Assembly (NCBI GenBank): GCA_903833215.1
Contig: CAILEM010000009.1
Span: forward strand, 62,001 to 126,000
Source of the DNA: an uncultured Armatimonadota bacterium
GTDB taxonomy: Bacteria > Armatimonadota > Fimbriimonadia > Fimbriimonadales > Fimbriimonadaceae
Length of the DNA: 64,000 nt
Direction: 5' to 3'
The position numbers and the translations under genes are program-made. The notes under the pieces are model-generated. The model was not told where the DNA came from. It saw only the letters and a list, made by a program, of their open reading frames with translations, and searched no databases. This document shows, one piece after another, positions 39,897 through 49,148 of the stretch (the first letter of the stretch is position 1; each line of letters opens with the position of its first letter).

Positions 39897-39938
39897 CAGC
39901 ATCTCAGTCGACCCATTCTGACTGGGATGCTGGTTTTT
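39897..39938 (+). terminator. Rho-independent terminator
   Basis: A 13-base-pair stem (CAGCATCTCAGTC at 39897-39909 with GACTGGGATGCTG at 39920-39932, one T-G wobble) and a ten-base loop are followed by GTTTTT. It closes the propeller/Ig-repeat transcript. It also argues against start codons for the next gene inside or just after the hairpin. Confidence 0.85.
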
Positions 39939-40001
39939 CCTTGGAAGTCCTTAAAGTCCGTTGCATACGTGCTGACCTGTGCGTATGTATTTGGGACTGT
40001 G

Positions 40002-42539
40002 ATGAATAGCTGGATCCGTGCGCTCGGGAGTGCTGCGCCGAAATGCCGAATTGCTTCGGTAATGCTCTCTACGATGTTTCTGTCCGGCACCACCTTGTGC
40101 CAGGTGTCTCCCGGTGGAGTCGATCCAACGGAACCCCTACGTAAATTTCCGATCACCTTTATGGTGCGTAGGCCGGAGTTTGGTACAGAGAGAGTGTCTC
40201 TTCTGCGGGTGACAACTTTACGTCCGAAGGACGATATCCAAGCAGTAGTTGACGACCGACTTCAAGGAAATTGGACTCTGGTTGAAGCCATTGTTGAGGC
40301 TGGCCAGAGGGTTGAGGTGAAGAGTTGGAATCTCTGGGAAAAGCGCTGGCGCGAGCGCCCGATCGAAATCGGAACGCTCCCCGATCGCGATGTTGTACCT
40401 TTGTTCTTCCTCACGCTGAACAGACGGCAAGAACGTCACGTGTTACAGGCTGTACGGCACGCGCTTGAGACGTCGAGCGAGATGATTCTCTCGCAAACTG
40501 CAACCTTCGAGACGCTCTTCCGCCAGCAGAACCGTTTGCTGAATTTCATGACGGCTTACGCATCCCTGGGCCCGAAAGTCGGTCCCGATCCAGTGAGTCT
40601 GAAAAACCGAGCCGACGTTATCAACTTGGATCTTGGAGCGAACTACGATCCAAATCTAGGATATACGTCGCCAGGGCAAATGCAGCATGGCCTTGATGCG
40701 TCGGTTGGATTGCTGAATGCCTTTCGTCAATCTCCCGATGAGCCGTTGCCGGCGGCCGCAGTGACGCGCTCACAGCTACCAGGGGTCGTTTCTGATTGGG
40801 TCGGTCTCGTAGGCGACCTCATGCACGTCTTCATCAAGCCACCTCGGGATGTTAAGTTGACCATGGTCCCCGGCTCAGCGGTGGAAATGGATGCAGGACT
40901 GTATCCAGAGAATCAATCCATGACGCTGATTACCCAGCGTGTTCTTGAGACTAAGGACGACTCATTGCCTTCGATTGTCTACCGACCTTCCTTCACGCGT
41001 CGGGATACATCTCGGCAAATGCAGCTCACGTTTGCGCATCCCGATGTCGTTGCTGAGACGAGGCAGGTCGCCATACCGTTGGGGCTGGACTGTCGCGAAC
41101 TCTTCCTTCGCACTTGGGCTTGGAAATGGGAAGTAAGCGAGGATGGCAAGCAATTTTCTCAGCTAATGGGCGCACACCTTATGCCCGGACGGGGACTTGT
41201 GTTCCCGATTTCTGCCGAATGGTGGGGAACAAATGATGTTCGTAAGCTCTACATACGGGCTCGAGTTGGATTTCTGACTTGTCCACCGAGAGAGGTGGAA
41301 ATCGCGAGAATCCGTCCACAGATGTGGTCGCTCGCCGCGGGTGAGCCCCTCGACATCGCTTCTGGTGATCCTTCAGTGTCGATACATCTCAATCGATCGG
41401 GGCAGACTCAGCCGTTCTACCGATTTGAGTCTGTCACTTTGACCGATTCAAATGGAAAGACCATTGGAGGAAGGGGCGTTCGCTACGGCACCGATTTGGC
41501 AGTGGATTTCGACCTTGGTGGTGCTACGCCGGGAATGGCCTCGATTCGCGTTCAGCAAGAGAATCAGGCTGGCCAAGATCCTCCCGTGAGTATCTTTATC
41601 GCCCCCAAGCATCCGACCATCTCAATCTTCTGTGGAAAGGGTGACAAGGTTCTGCGAATCAGTGGTCCGGAGGCGAATTGGGTCAAGTCCATTCAGGCAG
41701 ATTCCCTGTTTGTGCAGGAGACAGATGACTCTGAGGCCGGGAATCGACGCCTAACTTTATCAGGTCCTCTGCCTTCGAACTTGGGCAAAGTAAACGTCAC
41801 CTATAAAGATCCTCAGCGAGGATTAGAGTGGACGGTACCGGAACCTGTATCCGTAGGCTTGCCCCGACCTCGAGTTGCCGCATCGATTGTAGGAACTGTG
41901 CCGAACTCGATAGCTATTGGTGCAGGCGCGGACCCAACGTGGGCTACGGCGACAATGCCGCCTGGTTGGTTTCGGTCGAAGACACCCGTCCGAATTCAGC
42001 TGAGTGCCGTGGCACCCTTCACCTGGACCCATGATGTACTTCTTGACGTAGGGTTTGGCTCGTCGGGTGATGTGCAAAAGGTTCTAAATGTGCCTGAGGG
42101 GGCTGCATTTGCTTTGGATCAGGCGACCCCGAGCGCGTATGTGACCCTTGACCTTGATGCGGTGCTTCCGAAGGACTCGAAGCGAAATGCAGGTCTTCTG
42201 TGGGTCAAACTATCCCGCACGGATCTCGCGAGTCCGTGGACATTGATCACGGTGGACACCCCGTCCGGCCCAATGCCCCTTCGGGCAGTGAAGCTGCCAG
42301 GTGTGTTGGCTCTTGACACGACGGCGACAGGGACGAAGTTGACGCTGAGCAACTGTGATCAGATTCTTGGCGTGAAGTTTGCCGGCCAGGCTGGATTCAC
42401 CGCGCCACAGTTCCTCGACTCCGGTCCTGGCGGGCTTACGGCTACCGTTGATGGACCCGCAAATGCGACCGAATTTGACATCGAACTTCGTGACGCAAGC
42501 GAAGGGGTCATTCACGTAAAGGTCACCAAGAAGCCCTAG
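40002..42539 (+). CDS. Large exported protein of unknown family
   Basis: An 845-residue protein (from ATG at 40002; later ATG at 40062 also possible) with an N-terminal export signal (IASVMLSTMFLSGTTLC). I recognise no family. Residues ~50-400 are mixed alpha/beta; the second half is beta-rich, with strand-turn segments such as FDLGGATPGMASIRVQ and TLSNCDQILGVKFAG that suggest Ig or IPT-like modules. The open frame extends upstream to 39927, but that codon lies inside the terminator and is rejected. It sits between the surface propeller gene and a BlaI-M56 pair on the same strand, which hints at an extracytoplasmic role. Confidence 0.6.
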   Translation: MNSWIRALGSAAPKCRIASVMLSTMFLSGTTLCQVSPGGVDPTEPLRKFPITFMVRRPEFGTERVSLLRVTTLRPKDDIQAVVDDRLQGNWTLVEAIVEAGQRVEVKSWNLWEKRWRERPIEIGTLPDRDVVPLFFLTLNRRQERHVLQAVRHALETSSEMILSQTATFETLFRQQNRLLNFMTAYASLGPKVGPDPVSLKNRADVINLDLGANYDPNLGYTSPGQMQHGLDASVGLLNAFRQSPDEPLPAAAVTRSQLPGVVSDWVGLVGDLMHVFIKPPRDVKLTMVPGSAVEMDAGLYPENQSMTLITQRVLETKDDSLPSIVYRPSFTRRDTSRQMQLTFAHPDVVAETRQVAIPLGLDCRELFLRTWAWKWEVSEDGKQFSQLMGAHLMPGRGLVFPISAEWWGTNDVRKLYIRARVGFLTCPPREVEIARIRPQMWSLAAGEPLDIASGDPSVSIHLNRSGQTQPFYRFESVTLTDSNGKTIGGRGVRYGTDLAVDFDLGGATPGMASIRVQQENQAGQDPPVSIFIAPKHPTISIFCGKGDKVLRISGPEANWVKSIQADSLFVQETDDSEAGNRRLTLSGPLPSNLGKVNVTYKDPQRGLEWTVPEPVSVGLPRPRVAASIVGTVPNSIAIGAGADPTWATATMPPGWFRSKTPVRIQLSAVAPFTWTHDVLLDVGFGSSGDVQKVLNVPEGAAFALDQATPSAYVTLDLDAVLPKDSKRNAGLLWVKLSRTDLASPWTLITVDTPSGPMPLRAVKLPGVLALDTTATGTKLTLSNCDQILGVKFAGQAGFTAPQFLDSGPGGLTATVDGPANATEFDIELRDASEGVIHVKVTKKP

Positions 42540-42750: not shown

Positions 42751-42778
42751 TTGCTTTTGACGACAATTGTCGTACAAT
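42751..42778 (+). promoter_or_regulatory. Promoter of the first blaI-M56 operon
   Basis: TTGCTT (42751-42756) and TACAAT (42773-42778) are separated by 16 bases. The first operator palindrome lies in the spacer, so repressor binding would block polymerase. Confidence 0.55.
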
Positions 42779-42804
42779 GCCTCAGACGACATATGTCGTC
42801 TGAG
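42760..42804. promoter_or_regulatory. Two BlaI-type operator palindromes, module 1
   Basis: A perfect 14-base palindrome ACGACAATTGTCGT (42760-42773) and a perfect 24-base palindrome (42781-42804, inner part ACGACATATGTCGT) share ACGACA-nn-TGTCGT. Their centres are 26 bases apart. They flank the -10 box and the expected transcription start, as operators of BlaI/MecI repressors do. Confidence 0.8.
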
Positions 42805-42810
42805 TTTTGC

Positions 42811-43188
42811 ATGGCAAAGAAACCAGGAGTGGGACGGGCGGAGGTCGAGGTGCTGCGGTATATCGCAGACCACCCCGGCGTGGCTGTGAGCGAGGTCGCG
42901 GAGCACTTATTTTTAACGAAGGGCCAGACGAGGACGACGGCGCTAAACACGATGGAACGTCTTCGAACGAAGGCGTATCTGAGGCGTGAGCAAGTTGACG
43001 GAACATTTCGTTACTTCGCGGTGGACGGAAAGATCCGTATGTTCGAGGGCCTCGTTGATGACTTTGTGCAAGGTGTCCTAGGCGGCTCGGTTACTCCCTT
43101 GGTCGCCTACCTCACCAAGCAGGTCGAACTCAATCCAGAGGAAATCGCTGAGCTAAGGCACATTGTCGACAAGCTGGAGGAGCACTAA
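42811..43188 (+). CDS. BlaI/MecI/CopY-family repressor, module 1
   Basis: A 125-residue winged-helix repressor. The DNA-binding domain (GRAEVEVLRYIADHPGVAVS; RTTALNTMERLRTKAYLRRE) is followed by a dimerisation tail with the BlaI-type segment FVQGVLGGSVTPLVAYL. ATG at 42811 follows the second operator by six bases. Members are released from DNA by proteolysis triggered by a membrane M56 partner, which is encoded immediately downstream (two bases after this stop). Autoregulation through the adjacent palindromes is expected. Confidence 0.9.
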   Translation: MAKKPGVGRAEVEVLRYIADHPGVAVSEVAEHLFLTKGQTRTTALNTMERLRTKAYLRREQVDGTFRYFAVDGKIRMFEGLVDDFVQGVLGGSVTPLVAYLTKQVELNPEEIAELRHIVDKLEEH

Positions 43189-43189
43189 G

Positions 43190-45274
43190 TTGTCTTCTGG
43201 AATCCTCGCCACAGCTTCGATCCAGGGTGGCCTGTTGATTGGATTGGTTCTGTTAGGATTTCGATTTGTACCGTCGCTTCACCCGGATTATCGTGTTTGG
43301 ATTTGGCGATTGGTCTATCTGAAGCTCGCATTGCTCATGCTGCCGGTTCCACCGATCGGAATTCGAGTTTTGCCTACCCATTCAGTGACAAGCACAGGTG
43401 CCAATTTGCAGCCTGTCGCGGGTGCAGATTTCGAAGCCAAGGCGTTAGCATCCACCACTTCAAACCCTGCGAGGTCGTCGATGGATTATTGGATGCTTCT
43501 CTGGTTCGCGGGAGTCATGTTGGCGGTTGGTCGTGACCTTACCGGCTATCGAAATTGCCGGAAGCTAATTTTGAGTAGCGAGGCCGCGAAGAATCGGTCC
43601 CTTAACTCGACCCTACAGCAACTCACCTATAACGCCCGCCTTGGCCGTCGCCCCATTTTGCTCCAGTCGGCAAAGGTTCAATCGCCCTTCGTCCTAGCGG
43701 GTAAGACGCCTGCGATTGTCGTTCCGGCGAAGGTCGAGGACTCCGATGATATGCGGCTTATGTTGGCCCATGAAGTTGCCCATGTCGTTCGCAAAGACCT
43801 TGCTTGGAACTCTTTTCATTCCATCGTTCAAGCACTTTTCTTTTTTCATCCACTCGTCTGGTTTGCGGCTCGATCCGTCCATCAGGCGCAGGAGTCTGCG
43901 GCTGACCTTGCCGCCGTTCAAATCGCAAATTCGTCACCTCGCAGATATGCCGAGATGCTTATGCGTGCCACCGTCGTCCCTTCCAAGCCCGGCATCGCAA
44001 TGTCGGGAAGTCTGGCGATGAACAGTTCCTATCAAAGCATCCACCAGAGACTTACGGATATGAAGAACTCAACTACAAAACCGACTTTTGCCAAGTTAGC
44101 CTTTGCTGCAGTACTTGCGGCGACAACCATTGCCGCCACCCCAGCCTATCGTTTGGAAGCTAGGAACGATTTTTTGTCGTCTCCTGTCAGGCAAAGCAAT
44201 ACGGTAGGCCAGACCCTGGGCAGTCAAAAAGGGACAAGAGATATCCAAACGCAAGTCACCAGTATGTCTTCGGGCTTACTGCCTGTTAGCGAAGTCACGA
44301 AGGGCTCCCGGGAATCGAAGTCAGGTGAAGCTGACGTTCCAGTCAGCGAGGCGGCGAACTCGGATCCTGAGTCCCCAAGGGCGGATGATTCTTCTCCTAC
44401 TGCAGACACGGACTCACCTGAGTCAGTCGGCCTGACACAGGGTGGAACGGGCGGTTCAGGCGGCGGTGCTGGTGGTCAAGGAGGCCAAGGCGGCGGTGCC
44501 GGAGGCGCAGGTGGTTCTGGTGGTCAAGGTGGCCAAGGCGGAGGTGCTGGCGGAGCAGGTGGTTCTGGCGGTCAAGGTGGCCAAGGCGGCGAGTCTGGCG
44601 GTGCGGGTGGTGCAGGTGGCGCTCCCGGTCAGCCAGGTCAGCCTGGCGGTGGGGGCTATGGTGGAGCCGGTGGTGCCGGAGGAGCTCCAGGTCAGCCAGG
44701 TCAACCTGGCGGTGGGGGCTATGGTGGAGCCGGTGGTGCTGGAGGAGCACCAGGTCAGCCAGGTCAGCCGGGAGGGGGTGGTTATGGCGGAGCCGGTGGT
44801 GGTGCTGGAGGCGCTGGCGGCGGTGCGGGGCAACCAGGACGTCCCGGCCGTGGTGGTCGTGGTGGCCGCGGAGGAGCTGGTGGTGCCGGGGGTGGAGCTG
44901 GTGGCCGAGGAGGTGCACCGGGCCAGCCTGGACAACCAGGAACTGGCGGGCAGGGTGGCTCCGGCGGAGGTGCTGGTGGTCAAGGTGGCCAAACCGTTCA
45001 GCTCGACTACGGTCGAGGCACGAGCCAAGTTGGCTTTGGAGGAACTCGGGATGAATTTGGGGGCGGGCAATCCATCTCTACCCTCGACGGTGAAGAAGTC
45101 CTCGTTGCCACTCCGATGAATCGGGCAGGTGTTATGGCGGGGGCAGGAAACCGGCCAGTTTCGACGGCCAGAAGGACTCCGAACCAACGAACAGTCTCCG
45201 CAACTCGCAGGATGAATGGTCCGGCGAAGCTACTGAAGAAAGGACGCATTCTTGGTCGTAAACGACGGGCATAA
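43190..45274 (+). CDS. M56 (BlaR1-like) membrane metallopeptidase with Gly-rich repeat tail
   Basis: A 694-residue membrane protein. Three N-terminal helices (to about residue 115) are followed by the M56 zinc motif HEVAH at 194-198, FFFHPLVWFAARSVHQAQES with a further ligand-type glutamate, and a fourth helix (about 295-315). There is no penicillin-binding sensor domain. Instead residues ~417-601 are almost entirely Gly, Ala, Gln and Pro in tandem repeats, ending in a basic tail (RRMNGPAKLLKKGRILGRKR). TTG at 43190 is chosen because GGAGGA lies eight bases upstream, two bases after the blaI stop. Predicted role: sense an extracytoplasmic signal and cleave the module-1 repressor. Confidence 0.82.
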   Translation: MSSGILATASIQGGLLIGLVLLGFRFVPSLHPDYRVWIWRLVYLKLALLMLPVPPIGIRVLPTHSVTSTGANLQPVAGADFEAKALASTTSNPARSSMDYWMLLWFAGVMLAVGRDLTGYRNCRKLILSSEAAKNRSLNSTLQQLTYNARLGRRPILLQSAKVQSPFVLAGKTPAIVVPAKVEDSDDMRLMLAHEVAHVVRKDLAWNSFHSIVQALFFFHPLVWFAARSVHQAQESAADLAAVQIANSSPRRYAEMLMRATVVPSKPGIAMSGSLAMNSSYQSIHQRLTDMKNSTTKPTFAKLAFAAVLAATTIAATPAYRLEARNDFLSSPVRQSNTVGQTLGSQKGTRDIQTQVTSMSSGLLPVSEVTKGSRESKSGEADVPVSEAANSDPESPRADDSSPTADTDSPESVGLTQGGTGGSGGGAGGQGGQGGGAGGAGGSGGQGGQGGGAGGAGGSGGQGGQGGESGGAGGAGGAPGQPGQPGGGGYGGAGGAGGAPGQPGQPGGGGYGGAGGAGGAPGQPGQPGGGGYGGAGGGAGGAGGGAGQPGRPGRGGRGGRGGAGGAGGGAGGRGGAPGQPGQPGTGGQGGSGGGAGGQGGQTVQLDYGRGTSQVGFGGTRDEFGGGQSISTLDGEEVLVATPMNRAGVMAGAGNRPVSTARRTPNQRTVSATRRMNGPAKLLKKGRILGRKRRA
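44471..44809 (+). repeat. In-frame tandem repeats encoding a Gly-rich tail
   Basis: Two full 48-base units plus a partial one start at 44471 (GGQGGQGGGAGGAGGS). Three 63-base units follow at 44621, 44684 and 44747, each starting APGQPGQPGGGGYGGA. Third-position differences between units show selection for the protein sequence rather than a recent simple expansion. Confidence 0.85.
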
Positions 45275-46884: not shown

Positions 46885-48675
46885 TTACTTGTTCACCATG
46901 ATGGTGTAAACACTACCTTCGACCCGAAAAGTCAGTGGCTGCTTGACCGACGACAAGATTGTCTGCAATGCAAAGTCAACGTCGATTCCCTCGAGCGAGC
47001 ACGTTACGGTGTCCGTTAGAACTTCCGACTTGATGACGTAGTTCAACTTGTACGCCTTAAAAATGCTCTTTAGCGCTTCATGGATATCGGCGTTGTCTAG
47101 CACGATTCGCAACCGACCGTTCTCGCCGACTGTGACGTTAGCGCGGGGGGCAGCCTCGGTGGCTGGGCTTGTTTGCATCGGTACATCGGCGACTTGTGCA
47201 ACTTCGGATCGAGGAGCATTAGCAGCTCGAACCGGTGGTAGTGAGGCTCGTGACGCAGGAAATGGAGCAATTGCTGAAATTGGGGCCACGCTAAAACGAA
47301 CTTGGCCGTTTTCTGCCGTGATTCTCGCAGGGGGTAATGCAGGTCGAGGCGGAGCTGGGCTAACAGTGCGAGCAGGCAGCCCGCCTGGATATGGAGGTTC
47401 AGCGATTCTAGCCGCCCCCTCACGGAAATCTTTGAACGCGAGTGGATTGGGCGGAACGACCCCTCTTACCTTGGCTGCCGAGGCTTTGACCTTGGCGATC
47501 TTGGTTGGATGAGCTGATTTGTGAGTGTGCTTGGAGGGTGATTGTTTGGCAGCATCTGACTTCTTCGAGTTTGAAGCTTGAGCGGTAACCGTCCAAGGAA
47601 GAGCGCATACGGCGGCAAGGGCGATAACAAAGGTGCTGGCTGATCGATAGCGGTGCGCGTTTGCGCTGGTGAGAGTCTTGAGCATGGAGATCCTCCTTTG
47701 AATGAGCCGATAGCCGAATGCCGTTCCGAGCACTGCCATCGAAGAACGTGACTGAGCGGAGTCGATGAGAAGTCTTGCGTATGCAGCGGGGGAACTACCG
47801 CTCATACGCAATGCATCTGAATCGCACGCCGCCTCTCGTGCAGCGGCACCCTCATGGGCAGCCAACCACGCGAGTGGGTGGAAGTAGAACAGCGACTGGG
47901 TAATCGCCGGGATAATCCCGAACCATAGGTCTTTGCGTCGAAGGTGGGCGATTTCGTGTGCGATCGCCATTCGAACCTGCGGTTCAGTAAGACTGGATGC
48001 CTTTTGTGGAGGCAAAACGATTGCTGGCCTCGCCCAACCGGCAAGAAGGGGACACAACGCATCTGGGGATTCGATGAGTCGCGGAGACGAAATCCGGTAA
48101 TCGATGCTGAACTCTTGCACGAGTTCATAGACCGGTCCCGACTCGATGGGAGTAGCATTTCTCAAAAGTCTTCGCGTGCCGGCCAGGCGACGAATCGAAA
48201 TGGCGAGACAGGTGAGCACACCGAGTACCCAAAAGAAGCTTGCCACCGCCATAAGCGAAAGGTGAGCCTTTGGTGCCTGTGTAAGGGTGATGCCAAGCAG
48301 TCTCTGAGGTTGTGTCTCAGATGAAACTGGAAAAGACGGTTGAGTCAGTACCGCCGTCGAGAAGTTCGAGCTTGTGGCTGTTGATCCAGCATCGCTGATT
48401 GCCGGCTGCGACATGTGAGTCGCAGGCGCCTGGTCCCCTTCGTGTGCAGGAAGAATAGGTAGTGCTAAGGGGCTGATCGCAACCAGTCGAATGAGCATCT
48501 GAAGCGATGCAATCCACCACAGCCAGGATTTTCCAGCGGCGGGTAGTCCTTTGAAGAGCCTGCAAATGACCCAAATGGCGAGGATGAATGCGCCGCCTTG
48601 TAGGCTGGTCCGAATGAGAGTAGGACCAAGTGTGGCTCCCCAGGCGTTGAGTGAAATAATCCAGTTCTGGCTCAT
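46885..48675 (-). CDS. M56 (BlaR1-like) membrane metallopeptidase with STN-like C-terminal domain
   Basis: A 596-residue protein with N-terminal membrane helices and the zinc motif HEIAH at 240-244, followed by RRKDLWFG, YFHPLAWLAAHEGAAAREAA and a further membrane helix (about 345-362). A Lys/Ser/Ala/Pro-rich linker leads to residues ~513-596. This tail resembles the STN (secretin and TonB N-terminus) fold: LRIVLDNADIHEALKSIF, NYVIKSEVL, VTCSLEGIDVDFALQTIL and a closing VYTIMVN strand. There is no penicillin-binding domain. The ATG overlaps the stop of the module-2 blaI by four bases. Likely a signal-responsive protease acting on that repressor. Confidence 0.8.
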   Translation of the reverse strand: MSQNWIISLNAWGATLGPTLIRTSLQGGAFILAIWVICRLFKGLPAAGKSWLWWIASLQMLIRLVAISPLALPILPAHEGDQAPATHMSQPAISDAGSTATSSNFSTAVLTQPSFPVSSETQPQRLLGITLTQAPKAHLSLMAVASFFWVLGVLTCLAISIRRLAGTRRLLRNATPIESGPVYELVQEFSIDYRISSPRLIESPDALCPLLAGWARPAIVLPPQKASSLTEPQVRMAIAHEIAHLRRKDLWFGIIPAITQSLFYFHPLAWLAAHEGAAAREAACDSDALRMSGSSPAAYARLLIDSAQSRSSMAVLGTAFGYRLIQRRISMLKTLTSANAHRYRSASTFVIALAAVCALPWTVTAQASNSKKSDAAKQSPSKHTHKSAHPTKIAKVKASAAKVRGVVPPNPLAFKDFREGAARIAEPPYPGGLPARTVSPAPPRPALPPARITAENGQVRFSVAPISAIAPFPASRASLPPVRAANAPRSEVAQVADVPMQTSPATEAAPRANVTVGENGRLRIVLDNADIHEALKSIFKAYKLNYVIKSEVLTDTVTCSLEGIDVDFALQTILSSVKQPLTFRVEGSVYTIMVNK

Positions 48676-49094
48676 TTGCTTTGCTCCTCTTGTGCCTCAA
48701 GCGATTCCACCATCCGGCGCAATTCCGCGACTTCGCGATCGTTCAGCTTGCCTGAGTCGGCGAGATATGTTACAAACGGCGAAAGCGAACCTCCGAGCGA
48801 TCGCTGAACGAACTCTCCGACAAGTCCTTTGAGAAGATCGTCTTGCTCAATTTTGGGGGAGTACTGAAAGATTCCCTCTACCTTTTTGCGGGTTAGGTAT
48901 CCCTTTGTTCTCAGCCGCTCCATCACTGTGAGGATGGTTGTCCGAGCGAGACCTCTAGGTGCGCCGTACACCTTGGCAGTTTCTCCTACCGTAATGGGTG
49001 CATTTTCAGAGACGAATCGCAAGACTTCCAACTGCTGGTCACCCAGCGACTGGTGGTCTTCGGAGACAAGATTTTGCTTAGGGATTTGGCTCAT
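48672..49094 (-). CDS. BlaI/MecI-family repressor, module 2
   Basis: A 140-residue winged-helix repressor from ATG at 49094; an in-frame extension to 49121 runs into the operator and is rejected. The HTH (LGDQQLEVLRFVSENAPITV; ARTTILTVMERLRTKGYLTR) and the BlaI tail (FVQRSLGGSLSPFVTYLA) are intact. It forms an operon with the STN-tailed M56 gene by ATGA overlap. Two near-identical operators lie directly upstream and extend towards the divergent GH30-like gene, which the repressor might also control. Confidence 0.88.
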   Translation of the reverse strand: MSQIPKQNLVSEDHQSLGDQQLEVLRFVSENAPITVGETAKVYGAPRGLARTTILTVMERLRTKGYLTRKKVEGIFQYSPKIEQDDLLKGLVGEFVQRSLGGSLSPFVTYLADSGKLNDREVAELRRMVESLEAQEEQSK

Positions 49095-49102
49095 GTGCTT
49101 CG

Positions 49103-49148
49103 TGACTACGACGATAGTCAATATAACACATGACTACGCTGATAGTCA
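49103..49148. promoter_or_regulatory. Two BlaI-type operators, module 2
   Basis: TGACTACGACGATAGTCA (49103-49120) and TGACTACGCTGATAGTCA (49131-49148) share TGACTA and TAGTCA arms with a six-base centre. Their centres are 28 bases apart. A TATATT -10-like box on the minus strand (49125-49120) overlaps the first site. They lie in the 121-base gap between this blaI and the divergent GH30-like gene. Confidence 0.8.

Follow-up and report, generated by a model that had tools for sequence, protein, structure and literature searches.

A BlaR1-type protease-receptor with a C-terminal STN/secretin N0-like domain in a Fimbriimonadaceae genome: a candidate envelope sensor

The window, i.e., the whole 64,000-nt stretch of DNA analysed here, encodes an M56 (BlaR1-type) protease which is very probably a receptor carrying an N0/STN sensor, together with a BlaI/MecI-type repressor. 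We propose, tentatively and with a probability of about 0.45, that the two proteins constitute a self-inducing envelope sensor of the BlaI–BlaR1 type, in which a secretin-derived N0 domain on a long flexible spacer replaces the penicillin-binding domain. Such a design suggests that the receptor senses secretin-containing machines or the cell envelope, not an antibiotic. The features of the locus are as follows.

46885..48675, minus strand: M56 (BlaR1-type) protease-receptor with a C-terminal STN/N0 domain, 596 aa (ORF, Pfam, model)
46894..47145, minus strand: STN/secretin N0-like domain, residues 511-594, ~84 residues (blastp, profiles, AlphaFold2, structural comparison)
47146..47592, minus strand: extracytoplasmic spacer, residues ~362-510 (147 residues), Lys/His-rich and then Pro/Ala-rich, predicted to be disordered (model, composition)
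47578..47589, minus strand: signal-peptidase-I-like motif V-T-A↓Q ending TM4, residues 363-366 (alignment)
47581..47637, minus strand: fourth membrane helix (TM4), residues ~347-365, with the invariant Pro360 near its end (alignment and model)
47833..47835, minus strand: third zinc ligand, Glu281 (alignment)
47944..47958, minus strand: HEXXH zinc motif HEIAH, residues 240-244 (alignment)
48672..49121, minus strand: BlaI/MecI-type repressor, with the TTG at 49121 as the listed ORF start, overlapping the receptor start (Penicillinase_R, E=2.5e-24, Pfam)
49103..49120, no strand assigned: operator copy 1, TGACTACGACGATAGTCA (dyad search)
49131..49148, no strand assigned: operator copy 2, TGACTACGCTGATAGTCA, its centre 28 bp from that of copy 1 (dyad search)

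Peptidase_M56 was matched over residues 19-332 of the receptor (E=3.5e-41, Pfam), and four membrane helices were predicted at about residues 29-47, 57-75, 141-159 and 347-365. H240, E241, H244 and E281 were invariant in the alignment of 16 related M56 proteins; with its catalytic residues intact, the protease is apparently active. The cytoplasmic flanks bear a net positive charge and the first outer loop a net charge of -2. Given these positive flanks and the predicted helices, the C-terminal tail is predicted to lie outside the cytoplasm, in agreement with the extracytoplasmic position presupposed in the preliminary description. Between TM4 and the terminal domain, the full-length AlphaFold model gave a pLDDT of only about 30-45 (residues 361-507), and the second part of this spacer consists in 40% of Pro and Ala. 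By general polymer reasoning, a spacer of 147 residues could span a periplasm or reach the outer membrane.

The preliminary description had recognized an STN-type domain in the last ~84 residues, with boundaries essentially the same as those computed here, and several independent comparisons bore this out. In the single-sequence Pfam search, both FecR_C (residues 524-592, E=0.03) and STN (E=0.15) stayed below the threshold, the STN score of 12.3 against the cut-off of 28.4 marking a limit of detection and not a defining trait. The tail shares 43% identity over 68 residues with STN proteins that this genome encodes and that exceed the Pfam cut-off (E about 1e-14 by blastp within a set of ten sequences). 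When a profile built from six M56 tails was searched against the PDB set, it matched the N0 domain of Neisseria meningitidis PilQ (E=1.5e-7); further PilQ proteins, HofQ and type II secretins came next, and the only TonB-receptor chain found was marginal (E=0.04). The NCBIfam PilQ model TIGR02515 spans receptor residues 521-593 (E=2e-4), and the secretin beta-domain PF00263 is absent from the protein according to Pfam.

AlphaFold2 predicted a beta-alpha-beta-beta-alpha-beta-beta fold for the isolated tail (pLDDT 84.8), and in the full-length model the domain occupies residues 511-594, with a pLDDT of around 90 for residues ~520-596. In the structural search with the tail model, the C-domains of FecR-like anti-sigma factors ranked best (Z 10.7), and matches were also obtained with the secretin N0 domains of XcpQ, PilQ and GspD (Z 9-9.8), the STN domain of PupR (Z 8.5-9.4), and the signalling domains of FecA and FpvA (Z 8.4-8.6). 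The fold by itself cannot pick among these four types, and it is the sequence profile that favours the N0 domain of PilQ.

The closest sequence relatives of the tail are of the pilus type. The window genome (G000) encodes four small STN proteins (L001-L004), paralogues that are secreted and have Gly-rich tails, one in a pil operon and three elsewhere; their STN domains pass the Pfam cut-off, three on the best match alone and one with its in-frame neighbours. At locus L115, a small STN protein is encoded between PilP-like and PilQ-like genes in the order pilM-N-O-P-STN-Q, in which M, N, O and P were named by sequence appearance only and the STN protein and the secretin by profile matches. A tree of 55 STN domains, most of whose deep forks are weak or unresolved, set the N0 domains of the secretins themselves apart (100/100) from the M56 tails and the small STN proteins of pil operons. 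Since the secretins' own N0 domains group apart, the M56 tails would be derived most simply from pilus-type STN proteins.

The architecture is not unique to the window. A family-wide search for STN tails, joined with a PF05569 search that gave 137 M56 matches in 44 of the 85 genomes, revealed at least 11 M56–STN fusions in nine Fimbriimonadaceae genomes, with one to three STN copies each. Group A comprises the window receptor and its orthologues in G004, G012, G019 and G007, all with a single STN domain that is still recognizable in each of the five. Group B was found in G009, G012:C122 (three STN), G002, G007 (two), G061 (two) and G025 (two). Other parts of secretins are joined to M56 proteins as well. 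Secretin_N (N1) repeats above the Pfam cut-off are present in two of them (L086, 101.7 bits; L087, 80.3 bits), and G007, which holds two M56–STN receptors, encodes a further M56 protein (L114:6294-7958) in which the secretin signature motif recurs close to the C-terminus, as VPFLSEIPIVGHAF and VPVLSDIPIIGRLF (PF00263, 32.1 bits). The tail of the latter is built of signature-motif repeats and a Pro-rich spacer, without the secretin barrel. Two M56 proteins of Planctomycetota gave Secretin matches of 44.6 bits, accompanied by a weak C-terminal STN (L159), and 58.3 bits (L176); both are nearly 2000 aa long and the Secretin-domain match sits in the tail. No paper on M56 combined with STN or secretin domains was found in the open-access literature searched.

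The 63 M56 tails from other loci contain varied Pfam families, the commonest including M23, carboxypeptidase-regulatory-like, LRR, HEAT and TonB_C. Hence, tail exchange among M56 proteins is general, and secretin parts are one recurrent choice. The window genome alone encodes nine BlaI–M56 pairs (L016-L024 and L026-L034) with different C-terminal tails, so that a single chassis serves a whole set of receptors; Gly-rich, coiled-coil-like, carboxypeptidase-regulatory-like and DUF1559 prepilin-like tails are among them.

Upstream of the window blaI, the operator sequence TGACTA-N6-TAGTCA occurs as a pair, and the start of blaI is more likely the ATG at 49094, downstream of both copies. The same pair precedes the orthologous blaI genes in G004, G012 and G019, the first site in G012 overlapping a promoter-like TTGACT-17-TATAAT, while the blaI of G007 has one operator site only, with a 7-base centre. 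The genes downstream of the receptor vary by species: glpK in the window, HAAS-type genes in G012 and G019, and a convergent gene in G004. In the five receptor-bearing genomes, no exact TGACTA-N6-TAGTCA was found beyond the receptor's own operon, and the search with one mismatch allowed yielded extra sites at a level not above the reversed-pattern control overall; a wider BlaI regulon was rejected on these grounds. Among the extra sites of the window genome, the best one, at C129:72470, is some 3.3 kb away from a secretin gene; it falls within the coding region of a melibiase-like gene and was discarded. In the position-weight scan of the secretin and STN loci, the true operators scored 21.6-27.3 and the best other locus 11.8; no operator-like site clearly over background was seen upstream of the examined secretin and STN genes. 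Coupling to secretin genes via this operator is thus not seen, and since the exact operator is restricted to its own operon, the blaI–m56 module looks self-contained. Other M56 fusion groups show different dyads, ACGACANNTGTCGT and CTACANNTGTAG-like, so each repressor group seems to use an operator of its own.

The preliminary description had suggested that the fusion couples the state of an outer-membrane transporter or a secretin to transcriptional derepression. The part of this proposal that stands is a true STN domain on a BlaR1-type protease with its own BlaI; the TonB branch was abandoned. TonB receptors are almost absent, with a single Plug protein in the window genome, lacking an STN match at its locus, while in G019, another receptor-bearing genome, no Plug was detected. 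A survey of the fusion neighbourhoods for TonB or secretin genes had also been suggested there; the fusions do recur, but no such neighbours were seen (crude gene calls), and none of the group A receptor genes has a secretin gene nearby. Coupling of the receptor to secretins is nevertheless plausible, because each genome contains 5-11 secretins, the N0 domains of the type IV pilus are the closest sequence relatives of the tail and other M56 proteins carry secretin parts. Because TonB receptors are missing, the partner is most likely a secretin or the small pilus STN protein. For a C-terminal STN domain on a membrane regulator we found just one firmly described precedent, PupR, whose domain binds, together with a second subdomain, the STN of the TonB transducer PupB (PMC7186176). 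By analogy with PupR, an STN–STN contact would be the likeliest mode. That contact with a secretin or a pilus STN protein is itself the signal has, in our estimate, a little less than an even chance.

In the mechanism that we favour, BlaI at rest would bind the two dyads at its own promoter and repress the blaI–m56 operon. The periplasmic N0 domain, on a spacer long enough to reach the outer membrane, would contact an N0-type partner, most probably a secretin ring or the pil operon's small STN protein. By analogy with BlaR1, a change in this contact would reach the HEXXH protease in the cytoplasm by way of TM4 and the extracellular loop; the protease would then cut BlaI and derepress the operon. 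In favour of this explanation are the N0/STN fold, the PilQ-type affinity, the BlaR1 architecture, the overlap with blaI, the paired operator, the recurrence, the plentiful secretins and the small STN protein in the pil operon. What computation shows are the domain, its predicted topology, intact catalytic residues, a BlaI gene as partner, a paired operator that is conserved, and an architecture that recurs. Against it count the lack of secretin genes near group A receptors, the lack of a clear operator upstream of the examined secretin and STN genes, and the unrelated tails of other M56 proteins of the same genome. Among group A orthologues, identity amounts to 41-49% in the protease part, 25-39% in the STN tail and 18-32% in the spacer; with the tail less conserved than the protease, there is no sign that a single fixed partner constrains it strongly. 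It is rather doubtful, though conceivable, that BlaR1-type proteases of Armatimonadota and Planctomycetota have repeatedly taken secretin parts (N0, N1, signature, secretin domain) as periplasmic sensors that fit into, or compete with, secretin rings and report their assembly state via BlaI cleavage.

Two alternatives put the sensing function elsewhere in the receptor. The N0 domain might be mainly an oligomerization device, the tails pairing or forming rings and setting the dimer state of the protease, with the membrane part or the extracellular loop reading the actual signal. The two or three tandem STN domains of several M56 proteins, the fast divergence of the tails and the precedent of BlaR1, a domain-swapped dimer whose EL1 loop participates in signalling (PMC9834060), point this way; single-STN receptors, however, prevail among the orthologues of the window receptor, and what is known of the PupR domain is that it contacts another protein (PMC7186176), and we consider this alternative unlikely. 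The tail might also be a captured domain of little importance, swapped by recombination, with the membrane part sensing membrane or wall stress. The differing and partly low-complexity tails of the nine BlaI–M56 pairs, as well as the weaker conservation of the tail relative to the protease, fit such a picture. It appears quite unlikely to us, as the domain is recognizable in five orthologues in spite of a spacer that diverges even further, and secretin-derived parts have been acquired repeatedly.

The other two alternatives retain the N0 domain as the sensor. In cell-surface signalling of the FecR/PupR kind, the STN tail would read the N-terminal signalling domain of a TonB-dependent transducer, and the structural ranking, led by the FecR-like anti-sigma C-domain and including PupR, as well as PupR's own binding of the PupB STN, speaks for it. 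The scarcity of Plug proteins described above, the preference of the profiles for PilQ N0 over the lone marginal TonB-receptor chain and the absence of an anti-sigma domain from the receptor (Pfam) already largely disfavour this reading, which is highly improbable. Finally, a signal peptidase might cut after VTA at the end of TM4 and free a soluble N0 domain that binds secretins, the cut regulating turnover. In the four orthologues aligned with the window receptor, the motif reads VTA↓Q or VVA↓Q, so that V-T/V-A↓Q is common to all five, and Staphylococcus aureus BlaR1 is cleaved by the signal peptidase SpsB at the equivalent place, Gly331↓Gln332, within the linker that follows its last helix (PMC9834060). 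So short a motif could mark only the end of a membrane helix, and it is less clear in the second fusion group; a shed sensor is likewise highly improbable, and the putative cleavage at V-T-A↓Q is best taken as a lead.

The window module resembles the staphylococcal BlaR1/MecR1–BlaI/MecI systems in its M56 gluzincin with HEXXH...E, four membrane helices, an extracytoplasmic C-terminal sensor, a BlaI gene, a paired dyad operator at the promoter (its binding is predicted) and a signal-peptidase-like site after the last helix. It differs in having the 84-residue N0/STN domain and the 147-residue spacer with no penicillin-binding (transpeptidase-like) sensor domain detected by Pfam, in an operon where no beta-lactamase or PBP gene was seen, and in a score far below the cut-off of the NCBIfam blaR1_generic model (90 of 400 bits). 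With FecR/PupR (PDB 6ovk/6ovm; FecR-like 4m0n), the closest fold matches, it shares a C-terminal periplasmic STN domain on an inner-membrane regulator, whereas its N-terminal part is an M56 protease without an anti-sigma domain, its output is the zinc protease plus a repressor, no folded juxtamembrane subdomain is predicted and TonB transducers are almost absent. The same fold is found in the N0 domain of the type IV pilus secretin PilQ (PDB 4ar0, 6w6m) and in the small STN protein encoded by the Fimbriimonas-type pil operon, and these are the closest relatives of the tail in sequence; in the window, in contrast, the domain is C-terminal on a protease-receptor and does not precede a secretin barrel or form part of a secreted Gly-rich protein. 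BlaR1 receptors are known mainly as antibiotic sensors, and here their chassis bears a domain of the inner rings of pilus and secretion systems. After PupR/FecR, the window receptor is a second type of membrane regulator to end in an STN domain. If the domain does contact secretins, it would provide a direct transcriptional read-out of secretion or pilus machines.

Several further observations concern the surroundings of the receptor. An about 870-aa secreted-looking protein without a Pfam match is encoded at 39927..42539; its gene lies near the receptor in four of the five orthologous loci and occurs in six out of 20 genomes of the genus, among them every one of the five that have a group A receptor. 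It is also present in G017 and unlinked in G007, and all six genomes are large, so it is not claimed as a partner. The second BlaI–M56 module of the window (42751..45274) has a Gly-rich tail of low complexity, and operators specific to it, GACGACAATTGTCGTA and GACGACATATGTCGTC, lie at 42759..42800. The orthologous receptor gene of G019 (L078:1900-2080), a metagenome assembly, contains an in-frame TAG near the N-terminus, which may reflect a pseudogene, an assembly error or a later start.
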